Notes under the pieces: model-generated
Databases searched by the model: none
What the model saw: the letters and a program-made list of their open reading frames with translations, nothing else
Told to the model about the DNA's origin: nothing
Position numbers and translations under genes: made by a program
Part shown: positions 52,509-64,000 of the stretch, in pieces
Numbering within the stretch: the stretch's first letter is position 1
Layout: each line of letters opens with the position of its first letter
Source: Polaromonas sp. OV174
GTDB lineage: Bacteria > Pseudomonadota > Gammaproteobacteria > Burkholderiales > Burkholderiaceae_C
Direction of reading: 5' to 3'
DNA length: 64,000 nt
Assembly: GCF_900112285.1 (NCBI RefSeq)
Contig: NZ_FOKZ01000002.1
Span: 1 to 64,000 of the forward strand

Positions 52509-53141
52509 ATGAACTCCCCCCACTCCCTGCGCCTGGTCGTGATTGCGCCCGATCTGGTCGACCCCGACAGCGGGGACGAGGCTGCCCTGGCGCTGAGGGA
52601 ACGCTCGCGCCAGTTGCGCATTGGCCTGCTGCAAGGCGGCTTCAACCTGATCGCCACGCTGCCGGCCGACACCTTTTTATGCCAGCGGCTGGCGCAGCTG
52701 CAGCCCGACATGATCATTGTCGATGCCGAAAGCGACGCCCGCGATTCGCTTGAACATGTGGTGATGGCGACGCGCGACGCGCGCCGCCCCATAGTGCTGT
52801 TTACCCACGACGACGACAGCCGCCACGTCAGGGACGCCGCGGCGGCCGGCGTTTGCGCCTATATCGTGGCCGGGCTGGAGCCGCTGCGCATACGCCCGGT
52901 GCTGGACCTGGCGATGGCGCGCTTCGAGCAAGAGCAGGGCCTGCGCCGCGAACTGGCCGATGCCCAAAGCCAGCTGAAAGAGCGCAAGCTGATAGACCGG
53001 GCCAAGGGCCTGCTGATGCAGCGCCAGGGCCTGTCGGAACCGGCTGCCTACGAAAAGCTGCGCAAGGCCGCCATGGACAAGGGCCTGCGGATGGGCGAGG
53101 TGGCGCAGCGCATGCTGGACATGGCCGAGCTGCTGGGCTAG
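52509..53141 (+). CDS. ANTAR-domain RNA-binding antiterminator (NasT-like)
   Basis: A 210-aa response-regulator-like protein. The N-terminal receiver-like domain (about 8-130) retains the phospho-acceptor-type Asp in IIVDAES but has no Lys in the usual C-terminal place (YIVAGL). The C-terminal ANTAR domain (about 150-207; LIDRAKGLLMQRQGLSEPAAYEKL) binds paired hexaloop hairpins in RNA. It precedes the nrtABC leader, which contains such hairpins, so it is predicted to prevent termination there and before nirB. The usual partner sensor NasS is not in the window. The ATG at 52509 fits the domain start. Confidence 0.85.
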   Translation: MNSPHSLRLVVIAPDLVDPDSGDEAALALRERSRQLRIGLLQGGFNLIATLPADTFLCQRLAQLQPDMIIVDAESDARDSLEHVVMATRDARRPIVLFTHDDDSRHVRDAAAAGVCAYIVAGLEPLRIRPVLDLAMARFEQEQGLRRELADAQSQLKERKLIDRAKGLLMQRQGLSEPAAYEKLRKAAMDKGLRMGEVAQRMLDMAELLG

Positions 53142-53171: not shown

Positions 53172-53188
53172 CGCACAAAGACGGTGCA
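53172..53188. promoter_or_regulatory. candidate NtrC binding site upstream of nrtA
   Basis: GCAC-N7-GTGC has the spacing of the NtrC consensus TGCACC-N5-GGTGCA and agrees at 10 of its 12 defined bases. It lies about 135 bases upstream of the sigma-54 -24 element, a normal enhancer distance. Confidence 0.5.
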
Positions 53189-53321: not shown

Positions 53322-53337
53322 TGGCACAGCTTTTGCA
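53322..53337 (+). promoter_or_regulatory. sigma-54 promoter of nrtABC
   Basis: TGGCAC-N5-TTGCA with GG and GC exactly ten bases apart matches the -24/-12 consensus. Transcription should start near 53348, just before the first leader hairpin. It implies activation by NtrC under nitrogen limitation. Confidence 0.85.
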
Positions 53338-53351
53338 CTGCATTAAGCACC

Positions 53352-53401
53352 GGCCCTGCACTTCAACGGCGAAGTGCAGGGCCTCAAGAACAAAGGCGTT
53401 C
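53352..53401 (+). ncRNA. ANTAR-responsive dual-hairpin leader of nrtA
   Basis: Hairpin 1 has a perfect 13-base-pair stem (53352-53364 with 53371-53383) and loop AACGGC. Hairpin 2 is GAAC-AAAGGC-GTTC (53388-53401). Both are six-base loops with A first and G fourth, the known ANTAR recognition pattern. The loop and 3' arm of hairpin 2 are also the 5' arm of the terminator, so binding should block termination. Confidence 0.8.
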
Positions 53402-53459
53402 GCACCCTGCCCTCACGACTCTCTCGTGCTGGCCCGGGGCTAGCGCCTTTTTTGTTTTT
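53392..53459 (+). terminator. regulated intrinsic terminator in the nrtA leader
   Basis: AAAGGCG (53392-53398) pairs with CGCCTTT (53444-53450), extended by an imperfect inner stem including CACGA/TCGTG, and is followed by TTTTTTGTTTTT. It ends 26 bases before the nrtA start. Confidence 0.8.
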
Positions 53460-53484
53460 CTCTTCACTTTCTGGAGTCGCTGAC

Positions 53485-54729
53485 ATGAGCCATCTGCTGA
53501 AATCCTCCTTGAGCCGCCGCAGCGTGCTGCAAGCCGCCGCCGTCGGTGCCGTCGGCATCAGCCCGGCGCTGCGCGCCGCCGTTTACGCCCAGGGCTCGGA
53601 CGCGCCGGAAAAAAAGGAGGTCAGGATAGGCTTCATTCCGCTGACCGACTGCGCTTCGGTGGTCATGGCCTCGGTACTGGGCATAGACAAAAAATACGGC
53701 GTGAGCATCATCCCGACCAAGGAAGCCAGCTGGGCCGGCGTACGCGACAAGCTGGTCAACGGCGAGCTCGACTTTGCCCACGTGCTCTACGGCCTGATGT
53801 ATGGCGTGCATCTGGGCACCGCCGGCCCGAAAAAAGACATGGCCGTGCTGATGAATCTGAACCACAATGGCCAGGCCATCACGCTGAGCAAACAACTGGC
53901 CGACAAAGGCGCGGTCGATGGCGCGGGTCTGGCCAAACTGATGGCCAGCGTCAAACGCGAATACACCTTCGCCCAGACCTTCCCCACCGGCACCCACGCC
54001 ATGTGGCTTTACTACTGGCTGGCCGCCCACGGCATCAACCCGATGAGCGACGCCAAGGTCATCACCGTGCCGCCGCCGCAAATGGTCGCCAACATGCGCA
54101 TAGGCAATATGGACGGTTTCTGCGTCGGTGAGCCCTGGGGCCAGCGCGCCATCATGGATGGCATAGGCATCACCGCCGCCACCACGCAAGAGATCTGGAA
54201 AGATCACCCGGAAAAAGTGCTGGGCACCACCGCCGAATTCACCCAGAAATACCCCAACACCACCCGCGCCGTGACCGCCGCCATTCTGGAGGCCGGCCAA
54301 TGGATTGACGCCAGCCTGGCCAACAAGAACAAGATGGCCGAAACCATCGCCGGCAAGGCCTACGTCAACACCAGCGTGGACGCCATCAACCAGCGCATCC
54401 TGGGCCGCTACCAAAACGGGCTGGGCAAAACCTGGGACGACTCCAACCACATGAAGTTCTTCAACGACGGCGCGGTGAACTTCCCCTACCTGTCCGACGG
54501 CATGTGGTTTTTGACGCAGCACAAGCGCTGGGGCCTGCTGAAAGAGCACCCCGACTACCTGGCCGTGGCCAAGCAGATCAACAAGATAGATATCTACAAG
54601 CAAGCCGCGACGGCCGCCAAGGTCAGCCTGCCCAAGGACGCCATGCGCACAACCAAGCTGATGGACGGCACGGTCTGGGACGGCAAGGAGCCGAAAAAGT
54701 ATGCCGACAGCTTCAAGCTTCGCGCCTGA
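53485..54729 (+). CDS. nrtA: nitrate ABC transporter substrate-binding protein
   Basis: A 414-aa binding protein of the NrtA/CmpA/NasF family. The signal peptide has a twin-arginine motif (SRRSVLQ), so export is probably via Tat. Family features follow the cleavage site near residue 35 (IGFIPLTDCASVVMAS; later FCVGEPWGQRA). The start at 53485 is chosen for its GGAG site and signal peptide; the longer open frame runs through the leader terminator. First gene of nrtABC. Confidence 0.92.
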   Translation: MSHLLKSSLSRRSVLQAAAVGAVGISPALRAAVYAQGSDAPEKKEVRIGFIPLTDCASVVMASVLGIDKKYGVSIIPTKEASWAGVRDKLVNGELDFAHVLYGLMYGVHLGTAGPKKDMAVLMNLNHNGQAITLSKQLADKGAVDGAGLAKLMASVKREYTFAQTFPTGTHAMWLYYWLAAHGINPMSDAKVITVPPPQMVANMRIGNMDGFCVGEPWGQRAIMDGIGITAATTQEIWKDHPEKVLGTTAEFTQKYPNTTRAVTAAILEAGQWIDASLANKNKMAETIAGKAYVNTSVDAINQRILGRYQNGLGKTWDDSNHMKFFNDGAVNFPYLSDGMWFLTQHKRWGLLKEHPDYLAVAKQINKIDIYKQAATAAKVSLPKDAMRTTKLMDGTVWDGKEPKKYADSFKLRA

Positions 54730-54774: not shown

Positions 54775-55689
54775 ATGGTCAGTGCCGTTTTTCACAGCCC
54801 GCCCGAATCCGCTACAAATTCAGTAGCTACTCACGCTCACCCAGAAAGCGCTGCAGCCATACAAAGCATAAAGAAAACGCCTACTCAGAGCGTCCGGCCG
54901 CCTTGGGATGCGTCCTTTGTCTGGCAGCGCCTGCTGCCGCCCCTGCTAGGCCTGGGCCTGCTGCTGCTGGTCTGGGCACTGCTGTCCATGGGCACGGGCG
55001 CCCGCATTCCCTCGCCCCAAGACACCTTCTGGCAGGCGGTAAAACTCTTTAGCGATCCGTTTTATCGCAACGGCCCCAACGACCAGGGCGTGGGCTGGAA
55101 TGTGCTGGCCTCGCTGCAGCGCGTCGCCCTGGGCTTTGGCCTGGCGGCGCTAGTCGGCATTCCGGCCGGCTTTCTGATTGGCCGCTTCACGTTTTTGAGC
55201 CGCATGGTCAACCCGCTGATCAGCCTGCTGCGCCCGGTCTCGCCGCTGGCCTGGCTGCCGATTGGCCTGCTGGTCTTCAAGGGCGCGAATCCGGCGGCGA
55301 TCTGGACCATCTTCATCTGCTCGATCTGGCCCATGATCATCAACACCGCCGCGGGCGTGCAGCGCGTGCCGCAGGACTACATGAACGTGGCGCGCGTGCT
55401 CAACCTGTCGGAATGGAAGATCATCACCAAAATTCTCTTCCCCTCCGTGCTGCCCTACATGCTGACCGGCGTGCGCCTGGCCGTCGGCACCGCCTGGCTG
55501 GTGATCGTGGCCGCCGAAATGCTGACCGGCGGCGTCGGCATAGGCTTTTGGGTCTGGGACGAGTGGAACAACCTCAACGTCATGAACATCATCATCGCGA
55601 TTTTTGTCATAGGCATCGTCGGTCTGGTGCTGGAGTTCGCGCTGATCCGGCTGGCCACGGCCTTTACGTTTGAAGAGGTGAAAGCATGA
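54775..55689 (+). CDS. nrtB: nitrate ABC transporter permease
   Basis: A 304-aa inner-membrane permease with about six helices and the EAA loop near residue 210 (ARVLNLSEWKIITKILFPSVLPYMLTG). The first ~45 residues are hydrophilic and unusual: codons at 54811-54875 coincide with a short interspersed repeat. The start has GAGGT upstream. It overlaps nrtC. Confidence 0.92.
   Translation: MVSAVFHSPPESATNSVATHAHPESAAAIQSIKKTPTQSVRPPWDASFVWQRLLPPLLGLGLLLLVWALLSMGTGARIPSPQDTFWQAVKLFSDPFYRNGPNDQGVGWNVLASLQRVALGFGLAALVGIPAGFLIGRFTFLSRMVNPLISLLRPVSPLAWLPIGLLVFKGANPAAIWTIFICSIWPMIINTAAGVQRVPQDYMNVARVLNLSEWKIITKILFPSVLPYMLTGVRLAVGTAWLVIVAAEMLTGGVGIGFWVWDEWNNLNVMNIIIAIFVIGIVGLVLEFALIRLATAFTFEEVKA
54811..54875 (+). 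repeat. short interspersed repeat inside the 5' end of nrtB
   Basis: The palindromic core GCTACAAATTCAGTAGC (54811-54827) is followed by a sequence parallel to that at 53247-53296. It lies in frame within nrtB and encodes about residues 13-34. Confidence 0.65.
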
Positions 55690-56498
55690 ACGCGTCCCTT
55701 TCCACCAAATACATAGACATACAGGGCGTGGCCCAGACCTTCCCAACCAAGAAGGGGCCGTTCTGCGCCTTGCAAAACATCAACCTGACGGTGGCCAGGG
55801 GCGAATTCGTCGCGCTGATAGGCCATTCGGGCTGCGGCAAATCCACCCTGCTCAACCTGATGGCCGGCTTGACCCTGCCGACCCAGGGCGTGCTGCTGTG
55901 CGCCAACCGCGAAATCGCCGGCCCCGGCCCGGAGCGCGCCGTGGTGTTTCAAAACCACTCCCTGCTGCCCTGGCTGAGCTGCTTTGAAAACGTCTATCTG
56001 GCGGTGGAACGCGTCTTTGCGGCGACGGAAAACAAGGCCCAGCTCAGGGCCCGCACCGATGCGGCGCTGGCCATGGTCGGCCTGGGTGCCGCTGCGCAAA
56101 AGCGCCCGGGCGAAATCTCTGGCGGCATGAAGCAGCGCGTCGGCATTGCCAGAGCGCTGGCCATGGAGCCCAAGGTATTGCTGCTGGACGAGCCCTTCGG
56201 CGCACTCGACGCGCTGACCCGCGCCAAGCTGCAGGACGAGTTGCTGCAAATCGTCGCCAAGACCCACAGCACGGTGGTGATGGTGACGCACGATGTCGAT
56301 GAAGCCGTACTGCTCAGCGACAAGATCGTGATGCTGAGCAACGGCCCAGCCGCCACGATTGGCGAACTGCTGGCGGTGGACTTGCCAAGGCCGCGCGACC
56401 GGGTGGCGCTGGCCGACAGTGCGCCCTACCAGCGCTACCGCAAGGCGGTGATGGATTTTTTATACACGCGCCAGACGCATGTGGAGAAAACGGCCTGA
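55686..56498 (+). CDS. nrtC: nitrate ABC transporter ATP-binding protein
   Basis: A 270-aa ABC ATPase with Walker A GHSGCGKST, signature SGGMKQRVGIARAL and Walker B VLLLDEPFGALD. It lacks the extra C-terminal binding-protein-like domain of cyanobacterial NrtC and is closer to NrtD/NasD in size. Start overlaps nrtB (ATGA). Confidence 0.92.
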   Translation: MNASLSTKYIDIQGVAQTFPTKKGPFCALQNINLTVARGEFVALIGHSGCGKSTLLNLMAGLTLPTQGVLLCANREIAGPGPERAVVFQNHSLLPWLSCFENVYLAVERVFAATENKAQLRARTDAALAMVGLGAAAQKRPGEISGGMKQRVGIARALAMEPKVLLLDEPFGALDALTRAKLQDELLQIVAKTHSTVVMVTHDVDEAVLLSDKIVMLSNGPAATIGELLAVDLPRPRDRVALADSAPYQRYRKAVMDFLYTRQTHVEKTA

Positions 56499-56522: not shown

Positions 56523-56963
56523 TCAGCCGCGATGGCCGGTGATGTAGTGCTCCAGCTGTTCGATGACGAATTTCTGCTCGGAGATGATGTCTTTGACCAG
56601 GTCGCCTATGGAAATCAGGCCCAGCAGCTTGCCGTCTTCAACCACCGGCAGATGGCGCAGCCGGTTTTCGGTCATCAGAGCCATGCAGTGCTCGCTGGTT
56701 TCCGTGGGCCCGACAAACATCACCGCGCTGGTCATGACATCGCGCACCAGCGTTGCCGCCGAGGTGCGGCCCAGCAGGGCAATCTTGCGGGCATAGTCAC
56801 GCTCGGTCAGGATGCCGACGATGGCGCCGTTTTCCATCACCAGCAAGGCGCCAATGCCCTTGTCGGCCATGCGCTGGAGCGCATCGAAGACCGAGGCCGT
56901 GGGCGCGATGCTATGCACGGCGGAGTCAGTTTTGGACTTCAGAATGTCGGTGACAGCGGTCAT
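56523..56963 (-). CDS. CBS-domain pair protein
   Basis: A 146-aa cytoplasmic protein of two CBS domains (about 10-65 and 80-140), which usually bind adenine nucleotides. GALLVMENGAIVGILTERDYARKI and RHLPVVEDGKLLGLISIGDLVK are typical. The start follows CAGGAGG. Convergent with nrtC, 24 bases away. Target unknown. Confidence 0.9.
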   Translation of the reverse strand: MTAVTDILKSKTDSAVHSIAPTASVFDALQRMADKGIGALLVMENGAIVGILTERDYARKIALLGRTSAATLVRDVMTSAVMFVGPTETSEHCMALMTENRLRHLPVVEDGKLLGLISIGDLVKDIISEQKFVIEQLEHYITGHRG

Positions 56964-57303
56964 GAGAGGCCTCCTGAAGAAAAGTCGCACACCTGACAGA
57001 GTGTGTGCCCATAAGCCCCTGCAATGCAACAGGCACAAAGCAGCTCAAGGCCAGATAACTCGGTCAGGCCAATGGTGTTTACCAGTCTATACAATTAGGG
57101 TTAACCATTAACATGAGCCCTGCCCACCCTGCAGGTGCTTGTTGTCAGCGCATGATCTGCGCGCCCTGCGACCGTCCCAGCGCCACACGCGACTTGGGGA
57201 CCGGCCCTTTTGGTCCACCACACCATCTTGATCAGGTGAGCCTCGCGCCCTAGCCGCGCGCCGGTCAGCGAGCGCCACCACCCTTTTTTTGAGGATATTC
57301 ACC
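56964..57303. other. divergent intergenic region between CBS and BASS genes
   Basis: This 340-base gap holds promoters for both genes, but no convincing -35/-10 pair is visible. GGTTAACC near 57098-57105 is a perfect palindrome next to a second TTAAC. No gene or RNA is seen. Confidence 0.5.
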
Positions 57304-62929: not shown

Positions 62930-62946
62930 TGGCACAGCGCTTGCAT
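62930..62946 (+). promoter_or_regulatory. sigma-54 promoter of nirB
   Basis: TGGCACAGCGCTTGCAT fits the -24/-12 consensus with GG and GC ten bases apart. It is nearly identical to the nrtA promoter. The start should be near 62956. Confidence 0.88.
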
Positions 62947-62976
62947 GGAGGCTGGCACGGCCAGGAATGGCCGCAT

Positions 62977-63023
62977 GCGGGCCCGGTGCAATGGCGCATT
63001 AGGCCCGCAGGACGATGGCGTCC
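62977..63023 (+). ncRNA. ANTAR-responsive dual-hairpin leader of nirB
   Basis: Hairpin 1 has a seven-base outer stem (62977-62983 with 63002-63008) and an inner TGC/GCA stem closing the loop AATGGC. Hairpin 2 is GGAC-GATGGC-GTCC (63010-63023). Loop 1 has A1 and G4; loop 2 keeps G4 but starts with G. An extra small hairpin CGGCC-AGGAAT-GGCCG (62958-62973) lies at the very 5' end. Hairpin 2 overlaps the terminator's 5' arm. Confidence 0.7.
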
Positions 63024-63074
63024 CCACGGATGTGCTGGCCTCAGGCCCTGGCAACCCGTGCGGACGCTTTTTTT
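63018..63074 (+). terminator. regulated intrinsic terminator in the nirB leader
   Basis: GCGTCC (63018-63023) pairs with GGACGC (63062-63067), extended by CACGG/CCGTG and an inner GGCC-TCA-GGCC hairpin, followed by seven T and, after a G, five more T. It ends about 30 bases before the nirB start. Confidence 0.85.
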
Positions 63075-63111
63075 GTTTTTGCGAACTGCCGAATCGGATA
63101 GAGGGGTCATG

Positions 63112-64000
63112 ATGAAAAAATCCAGACTGGTGATGATTGGCAACGGCATGGCCGGTGTGCGCGCCCTTGAAGAACTGCTGAAAATCGCGCCCGAGCTCTA
63201 CGACATCACGGTGTTCGGCGCCGAGCCGCATCCCAACTACAACCGCATCCTGCTGTCGCCGGTACTGGCCGGCGAACAGACGCTGGAAGAAATCGTGCTC
63301 AACGACTGGTCCTGGTACACAGCCAATGGCATCACCCTGCACGCCGGCTGGACCGTCACCGAAGTGGACCGGGTGCGCCGCTTGGTGCATGCGCAGAACG
63401 CGAGCGGGCAAACCATCAGCGCCGAGTACGACCGGCTGCTGATGGCGACCGGCTCCAGCCCCTTCATCCTGCCGATTCCCGGCAAGGACTTGCCTGGCGT
63501 GCTGGCCTACCGCGACATCGCCGACACGCAGGCCATGATTGATGCCGCCGCCGTTTACCGGCATGCCGTCGTCATAGGCGGCGGCCTGCTCGGACTGGAG
63601 GCCGCCAACGGCTTGATGAAGCGCGGCATGGAGGTGACCGTGGTGCATGTCGGCGACTGGCTGATGGAGCGCCAGCTCGATGACGTGGCGGGCAAGCTGC
63701 TGCAAAAATCCCTGGCCGAGCGCGGCATGAAATTCCTGATCGGTGCGCAAACCCAGGCCTTGCTGGCCGGAGAGGACGGTCGCGTCAAGGCGGTCAGCTT
63801 CAAGGACGGTACAGAGGTGCCCGCCGACCTGGTCTGCATGGCCGTCGGCATACGCCCCAACACGGCGCTGGCCGAAAAAATGCGCCTGCACGTCAACCGC
63901 GGCATCGTGGTCAACGACACGCTGCAGACGACCACCGACGCACGCATTTATGCGGTGGGCGAATGCGCTGCGCACCGCGGCATAGCTTATGGCCTGGTGG
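63112..64000 (+). CDS. nirB: nitrite reductase [NAD(P)H] large subunit, N-terminal part (cut by window end)
   Basis: The first 296 codons of an open frame that runs off the window. The start is ATGATG at 63109-63114 after GAGGGG; the second ATG is taken. The FAD-binding beginning VMIGNGMAGVRALEELL, the YNRILLSPVLAGE segment and the NAD-binding stretch VVIGGGLLGLEAANGL are typical of assimilatory NirB. The sirohaem and Fe-S half is beyond the edge. The enzyme reduces nitrite to ammonium, completing the pathway that starts with the nitrate importer. Confidence 0.92.
   Translation, partial: MKKSRLVMIGNGMAGVRALEELLKIAPELYDITVFGAEPHPNYNRILLSPVLAGEQTLEEIVLNDWSWYTANGITLHAGWTVTEVDRVRRLVHAQNASGQTISAEYDRLLMATGSSPFILPIPGKDLPGVLAYRDIADTQAMIDAAAVYRHAVVIGGGLLGLEAANGLMKRGMEVTVVHVGDWLMERQLDDVAGKLLQKSLAERGMKFLIGAQTQALLAGEDGRVKAVSFKDGTEVPADLVCMAVGIRPNTALAEKMRLHVNRGIVVNDTLQTTTDARIYAVGECAAHRGIAYGLV

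Follow-up and report, generated by a model that had tools for sequence, protein, structure and literature searches.

The DNA from 53322 to 53484 of the window, by which we mean the whole 64,000-nucleotide stretch of Polaromonas sp. OV174 that was analyzed, is the leader of the nrtABC operon and belongs to a known class of RNA switches, the NasT/P11 leaders. It combines a sigma-54 promoter, two hairpins with six-base loops (P1 and P2) and an intrinsic terminator (Table 1). We hold with high confidence that, as a whole, this is an nrtABC leader started by sigma-54 and NtrC and controlled through antitermination by NasT.

Table 1. Features of the two leaders and of the neighboring genes, in window coordinates.
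Feature	Positions	Strand	Remarks
nasT, ANTAR regulator	52509-53141	+	Pfam ANTAR (PF03861) 7.8e-20; start codon by eye
NtrC-like enhancer site CGCAC-N7-GTGCA	53172-53188	+	9/10 half-site letters
Sigma-54 promoter -24/-12, TGGCACAGCTTTTGCA	53322-53337	+	exact match; GG-N10-GC; TGGCAC-N5-TTGCA
P1, 13 bp hairpin	53352-53383	+	arms 53352-53364/53371-53383; hexaloop AACGGC (A1, G4) 53365-53370
Terminator, intrinsic	53386-53459	+	5' arm = loop and 3' arm of P2; terminator 3' arm CGCC + T-run 53444-53459
P2, GAAC-AAAGGC-GTTC	53388-53401	+	predicted antiterminator; arms 53388-53391/53398-53401; loop AAAGGC (A1, G4) 53392-53397
nrtA, nitrate-binding protein	53485-54729	+	PF13379 343.7 bits; 2g29 NrtA E 5.4e-79
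nrtB, nitrate ABC permease	54775-55689	+	TIGR01183 252.8 bits, cut-off 209.05
nrtC, nitrate ABC ATPase	55686-56498	+	TIGR01184 328.1 bits, cut-off 291.8
Second leader, before nirB	62930-63079 (end about)	+	new in this analysis
Second-leader sigma-54 site	62930-62945	+	exact match
Second-leader 5' hairpin P0	62958-62973	+	GGAA tetraloop
Second-leader P1 loop AATGGC	62990-62995	+	
Second-leader P2, GGAC-GATGGC-GTCC	63010-63023	+	loop position 1 = G
Second-leader terminator	to about 63079	+	
nirB, nitrite reductase large subunit	63112-63999	+	TIGR02374 349.4 bits; runs off window

All elements named in the original prediction were recovered: the GG-N10-GC promoter as an exact sigma-54 site, the 13-base-pair hairpin with loop AACGGC and the second hairpin GAAC-AAAGGC-GTTC by direct reading, and the shared 5' arm in that the terminator is made from P2's own bases. 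Both loops have six bases with A at position 1 and G at position 4, as in ANTAR dual hairpins, and the terminator ends 25 nt 5' of the nrtA start codon. When 53340-53500 (161 nt) was folded an energy of -70.8 kcal/mol was obtained, which none of 200 shuffles equalled; this z-score of -6.29, together with covariation over 74 leaders, rules out a chance origin of the structure.

For comparison, 80 loci around relatives of nasT were collected, the nearest named ones, judged by NasT, being Polaromonas spp. A mechanical scan requiring sigma-54 site, P2 and terminator found all three together in 69 of the 80 loci, and this first pass gave no leader in 11 of 81 sources (window counted). A wider set of 80 further stretches was added, nearly every one from a different genus of the family. 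From 122 called leaders 113 were kept; removing redundancy left 87, of which 83 allowed P1 to be scored and 74 were aligned; L091 (a copy of L073) and L060, L112, L149 and L143, where the script had picked a wrong hairpin, were left out. The aligned leaders, two of them from the window, were selected for at least four pairs in each of P2 and P1 and for A1 and G4 in the P1 loop. Selection therefore accounts in part for the full pairing of P2, for the P1 pairs nearest the loop and for the letters of the loops, whereas the outer P1 pairs were left free. The results showed 87.5% of the P1/P2 cells paired (64.2% when shuffled) and a covariation score of 0.620, compared with 0.198 for shuffles, which related sequences easily beat, and 0.10-0.21 when partners were slid by 1-3 columns. 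In P1 both sides changed at 9 of 10 pairs, with 297 such cells vs 113 in shuffles, and the slid-partner control, together with the six kinds of pair seen at most positions of P1, makes chance pairing untenable. Of the four P2 pairs two are invariant, one has changes on a single side and one covaries (GC/AU), a near-invariance that is expected since the same bases serve both folds. The leader thus covaries in the manner of an ANTAR dual-hairpin leader, and the anticipated covariation of the two hexaloop hairpins in relatives stood for P1 and, at one pair in four, only in part for P2.

We followed the competition between the two folds by growing the RNA from 53347 in 6-nt steps. With the RNA ending anywhere from 53406 to 53442 the best fold contained P2, and at 53448 the terminator was better; in the full-length RNA the terminator fold led the P2-forced fold by 12.3 kcal/mol. 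The proposed competition survived this test. P2 and terminator exclude each other in both leaders of the window. Across the 87 leaders P2 was within the optimal early fold in 66 and absent in 21, the nirB leader of the window included, and 85 ended in the terminator fold, a count that gives no independent support because a complementary 3' arm was required at collection. The mutual exclusion had been called unusually explicit. It is instead typical, since the arrangement is shared by 69/80 related loci and the overlap of P2 and terminator is described in passages of Ramesh 2012 (PMC3369931).

These data fit a switch of the following kind. Under nitrogen limitation NtrC-P, about 150 bp upstream, would activate the sigma-54 RNA polymerase and transcription would start at about 53347. 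If NasT is absent, the growing RNA would form P1 and briefly P2, until P2 gives way to the invading terminator and the polymerase stops near 53459. Active NasT, with nitrate or nitrite as the likely signal, would hold P1 and P2 through their A1/G4 hexaloops, whereby the terminator would be blocked and nrtABC transcribed, and the nirB leader would be driven likewise by NtrC/sigma-54 and NasT. That nitrate lets transcription pass the terminator, as originally proposed, is probable. Such a leader would place nitrate uptake and reduction behind a two-input gate, open when nitrogen is short and nitrate is present.

The candidate for the ANTAR protein that binds the leader is NasT, whose gene lies directly upstream, ends 180 bp before the promoter and gives the sole ANTAR match in the genome. 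NasT found the chains 1s8n, 6wsh, 4akk (nitrate regulatory protein) and 1qo0 (AmiR) by phmmer, and the 1s8n and 6wsh matches span both domains, as in a NasT-type protein with a pseudo-receiver; a receiver domain gave no Pfam match in NasT. An ANTAR protein is present in 100/120 genomes of the family. The same leader type was also seen behind NIT-ANTAR (NasR-type) genes, L130, L158 and L152 being examples, and so appears to work with either regulator; the larger-regulator loci are of the NasR type, with NIT and ANTAR domains in 8/8 scanned. At the other end of the operon a gene for a protein with two CBS domains (56523-57038, minus strand) is convergent to nrtC.

NasS is the partner of NasT in Pseudomonas and was not found in the Polaromonas genome here. 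A search of the genome for a separate, signal-less PF13379 protein gave only NrtA at about 345 bits, which carries a Tat signal, SRRSVLQ (by eye and by script), and a next match of 63.1 bits; as a benchmark, Paracoccus NasS scores 180.2 bits and a signal-less Burkholderia cenocepacia protein beside nasT 285. The known switching route for NasT is therefore missing. In Paracoccus, according to passages in PMC3795266, NasS is a cytoplasmic NrtA relative that frees NasT on binding nitrate, and NasT binds the nasA leader RNA with nitrate. The system described here is like the NasS-NasT systems of Paracoccus and Bradyrhizobium in its NasT-type ANTAR protein and nitrate-gene targets, but no cytoplasmic NasS was found, and what occupies its place is a Tat-exported relative. 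Either NasT works without a sensor, or the exported nitrate-binding protein also does the sensing; NrtA is the best sensor candidate.

To see how binding proteins accompany the regulator we used a family set of 80 stretches chosen for a PF13379 protein near an ANTAR gene; three more places of this sort (G114, G115 and G118), and all genomes lacking the neighbor, lie outside the set. There was no NasT hit in 5/80, and the L125 protein was called signal-less by script and Tat-like by eye. The nrtA genes of L028 and L069 were out of frame and not used; their frames are broken between signal and core (from L028:12106 and L069:9825 on), through sequencing error or a real break. The nasT-adjacent nrtA orthologue was exported in 53/55 NasT-type loci and signal-less in 2/55, and in both of the latter, as in L071 of the nearer set, a different Tat-exported binding protein follows it. 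The first-type binding protein was kept in all 55 NasT-type loci and missing in 4/20 NIT-ANTAR loci, which hold solely another type. A rule that NasT is always accompanied by this first type was nevertheless too strong and fails across the order.

Signal-less nasT-adjacent NrtA orthologues were seen in L071, L073, L137 (the first protein at 277.5 bits for PF13379), L216 and L222-L227; in other Burkholderiales a signal-less orthologue is found in L216, L222-L227 and L171. The proteins of L216, L224, L225 and L227 retain a mature start, GSDAPEK or GTDKPEI, and in L222 and L225 a NarK-type transporter is next (292.9 and 289.6 bits, below the 311.7 cut-off). In a tree the signal-less proteins formed two groups (3 + 8 = 11 rows, with L200 counted as exported for its Tat motif) among exported ones of a Burkholderiales clade; the method was quick and the branches long, which leaves the unity of the second group unsure and does not separate loss from gain. 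The three of the nearer group share the NrtA stretches SWA.VRDKL, NGQ, GTH and HPEK. By their sequences, these orthologues in two related groups look like NasS.

Tat substrates fold before export. The sole close family member being Tat-exported, and the signal-less orthologues being NasS-like, we propose, tentatively and with the odds somewhat against it, that the NrtA precursor binds nitrate in the cytoplasm and holds or releases NasT as NasS does. Tat export would then remove the inhibitor in step with transport, and where a second Tat-exported binding protein or NarK does the importing, the gene would lose its signal peptide and become a dedicated NasS, more than once. Other genomes of the order complicate this. 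NasT stands beside another Tat-exported type in G206 and G124 and beside a further type in G207, G166 and G236, and in G225, G243, G240, G204 and G121 the PF13379 protein is elsewhere in the genome; such cases count against NrtA as the sensor. Among 22 genomes checked, two (G249 and G187) have NasT and no PF13379 protein at E 1e-30, and these speak against the sensor role as a general rule. They would fit a sensor-free NasT, always active once made, with NtrC/sigma-54 alone regulating. In G249 (L203) nasT sits with a NarK-type gene (295.1 bits, under the cut-off) and nirB (876.8 bits), the absence of NasS in the genome examined here fits as well, and passages in PMC3795266 and PMC4724949 report that nasS mutants elsewhere express nitrate genes without nitrate. 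The G187 case is weakened by a transposase gene (PF13701) next to nasT on its downstream side, since nitrate genes may not be the targets of this NasT. A terminator kept with strong P1 covariation in many lineages would be pointless if always overridden, and we regard a NasT without any sensor as rather unlikely.

The window holds a second leader, before nirB, which was absent from the original prediction (Table 1); the notion that the leader is unique in the genome was thereby rejected, at least two being present. The TIGR02374 match of nirB covers 288/794 positions and is below the whole-protein cut-off since the gene is truncated by the window. Our own RNA model, in whose training set both leaders belonged, gave 59.1 bits for the nrtABC leader, 40.2 for the nirB leader and 16.2 for the next match in the genome (150/3040 candidates scored).

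The nirB leader has an additional 5' hairpin, P0, and the leader at 53322-53484 has the plain two-hairpin form. Searching 23-34 nt before the P1 loop, we found a P0 of at least four pairs 5' of P1 in 45/83 leaders, at 23-33 nt (26-30 in 40 of them); 29 leaders were too short and nine had no P0. The P0 loop has A1 and G4 in 33/45, with 20 different hexamers, against 5.9% of same-size hairpins elsewhere in the loci and 5.2% in shuffled leaders. It is these letters that constitute the evidence, since the stems were selected for at least four pairs and the loops were unselected. Among the other 12, seven are GNRA or UUCG tetraloops, the nirB leader of the window included. An ANTAR-type P0 loop is present in 12/14 leaders with G1 in the P2 loop vs 21/69 others (Fisher 0.00018, relatedness ignored). 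Tandem hairpins with P0 about 28 nt from P1 were seen in leaders of L010-L169, e.g. at L050:8861 and L137:1063. Relatives whose P0 loop is of the ANTAR type likely have a triple ANTAR site.

The leader matches P11 (RF00625), which Rfam classes as a Gene and describes as an sRNA, and passages in PMC12080996, citing Marogi 2024, describe P11 as an sRNA that regulates the P. aeruginosa nirB/nirD/nasC operon. The terminated leader could on this basis be mainly a trans-acting small RNA, with its place before nrtA secondary. Control of an operon is equally compatible with a cis leader, though, and both copies in the window precede nitrate genes with hairpins and overlapping terminator intact, which makes a mainly trans-acting role improbable.

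Regarding the cis-acting leader and its start, TGGCAC-N5-TTGCW occurs without mismatch at just two sites in the 64 kb, 53322 and 62930, each before an ANTAR leader. A NtrC-like site with at least 9/10 letters lies upstream of 44/87 leaders, compared with 1-5/87 at other spacings and 1.0% in shuffles; CGCAC-N7-GTGCA at 53172-53188 matches the NtrC consensus. The nirB leader's site has 8/10 letters, and window-wide there were 2 matches vs 5.6 expected, i.e. no over-representation. A -24/-12 element and a NtrC site together make this a putative sigma-54/NtrC promoter by sequence match, and the genome encodes one RpoN and one NtrC above cut-off. The suggestion that nitrogen starvation starts transcription gains from the conserved NtrC-like site and from the presence of rpoN and ntrC. 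That the sigma-54 match is accidental and transcription enters the leader by reading through from nasT is hardly credible: sites with at most one mismatch do occur at chance level in the window (7 vs 5.1 expected), but both exact sites precede leaders, the site recurs before hairpins in 69/80 related loci (in a scan that required it), the P1 loop falls 42-44 nt after the promoter GG in 23 of the 40 leader rows without P0, and NtrC-like sites lie upstream of leaders. In Acidovorax citrulli, passages in PMC10052978 report that a strain deleted for ntrC failed to grow on nitrate, with 'nasS' lowered and nasT raised. These effects fit a promoter lying after nasT and before the gene of the binding protein, provided that this gene is the 'nasS' of those passages, which leave its identity unstated.

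With respect to known RNA classes, the whole P11 model aligned to the leader at 30.6 bits (E 2.3e-4), below its gathering threshold of 70, and narK RNA (RF03032) at 26.4 bits (E 0.021), below its threshold of 43.2; at an open threshold both matches take in the promoter block. The nirB leader matched P11 weakly (14.1 bits, E 0.56). Of 17 relatives scanned, one reached gathering level, with narK RNA at 43.3 bits (L241:5496-5565), where our own model places a leader too; the other 16 gave no such match, and five had none even at E 0.01. P11 RNA of the P. aeruginosa nitrite/nitrate reductase operon shares with the leader the GGCACA-N-TGC promoter block, the P1 loop AACG.. and the P2/terminator arm GGACAAAGGCGUC, and differs in the score below gathering and in that the leader here precedes nrtABC. 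narK RNA shares the promoter block, P1 with CAACGGCG and ACAAAG.CGU, but its model stops short of the terminator. We conclude that P11 and narK RNA are probably one device, the NasT leader, which would tie two orphan-named Rfam RNAs to one regulatory device in Burkholderiales. A literature search found no paper joining P11, ANTAR and Rfam, which does not by itself show absence from print.

ANTAR dual-hairpin antiterminators (EutV, NasR, AmiR) were defined in 2012 (Ramesh 2012, PMC3369931), and according to passages of that work its hits were screened for a terminator overlapping P2. The leader described here is alike in having two hairpins with A1/G4 loops; compared with the antiterminators in those passages, it has a sigma-54 promoter in front and, in many relatives, a third hairpin.
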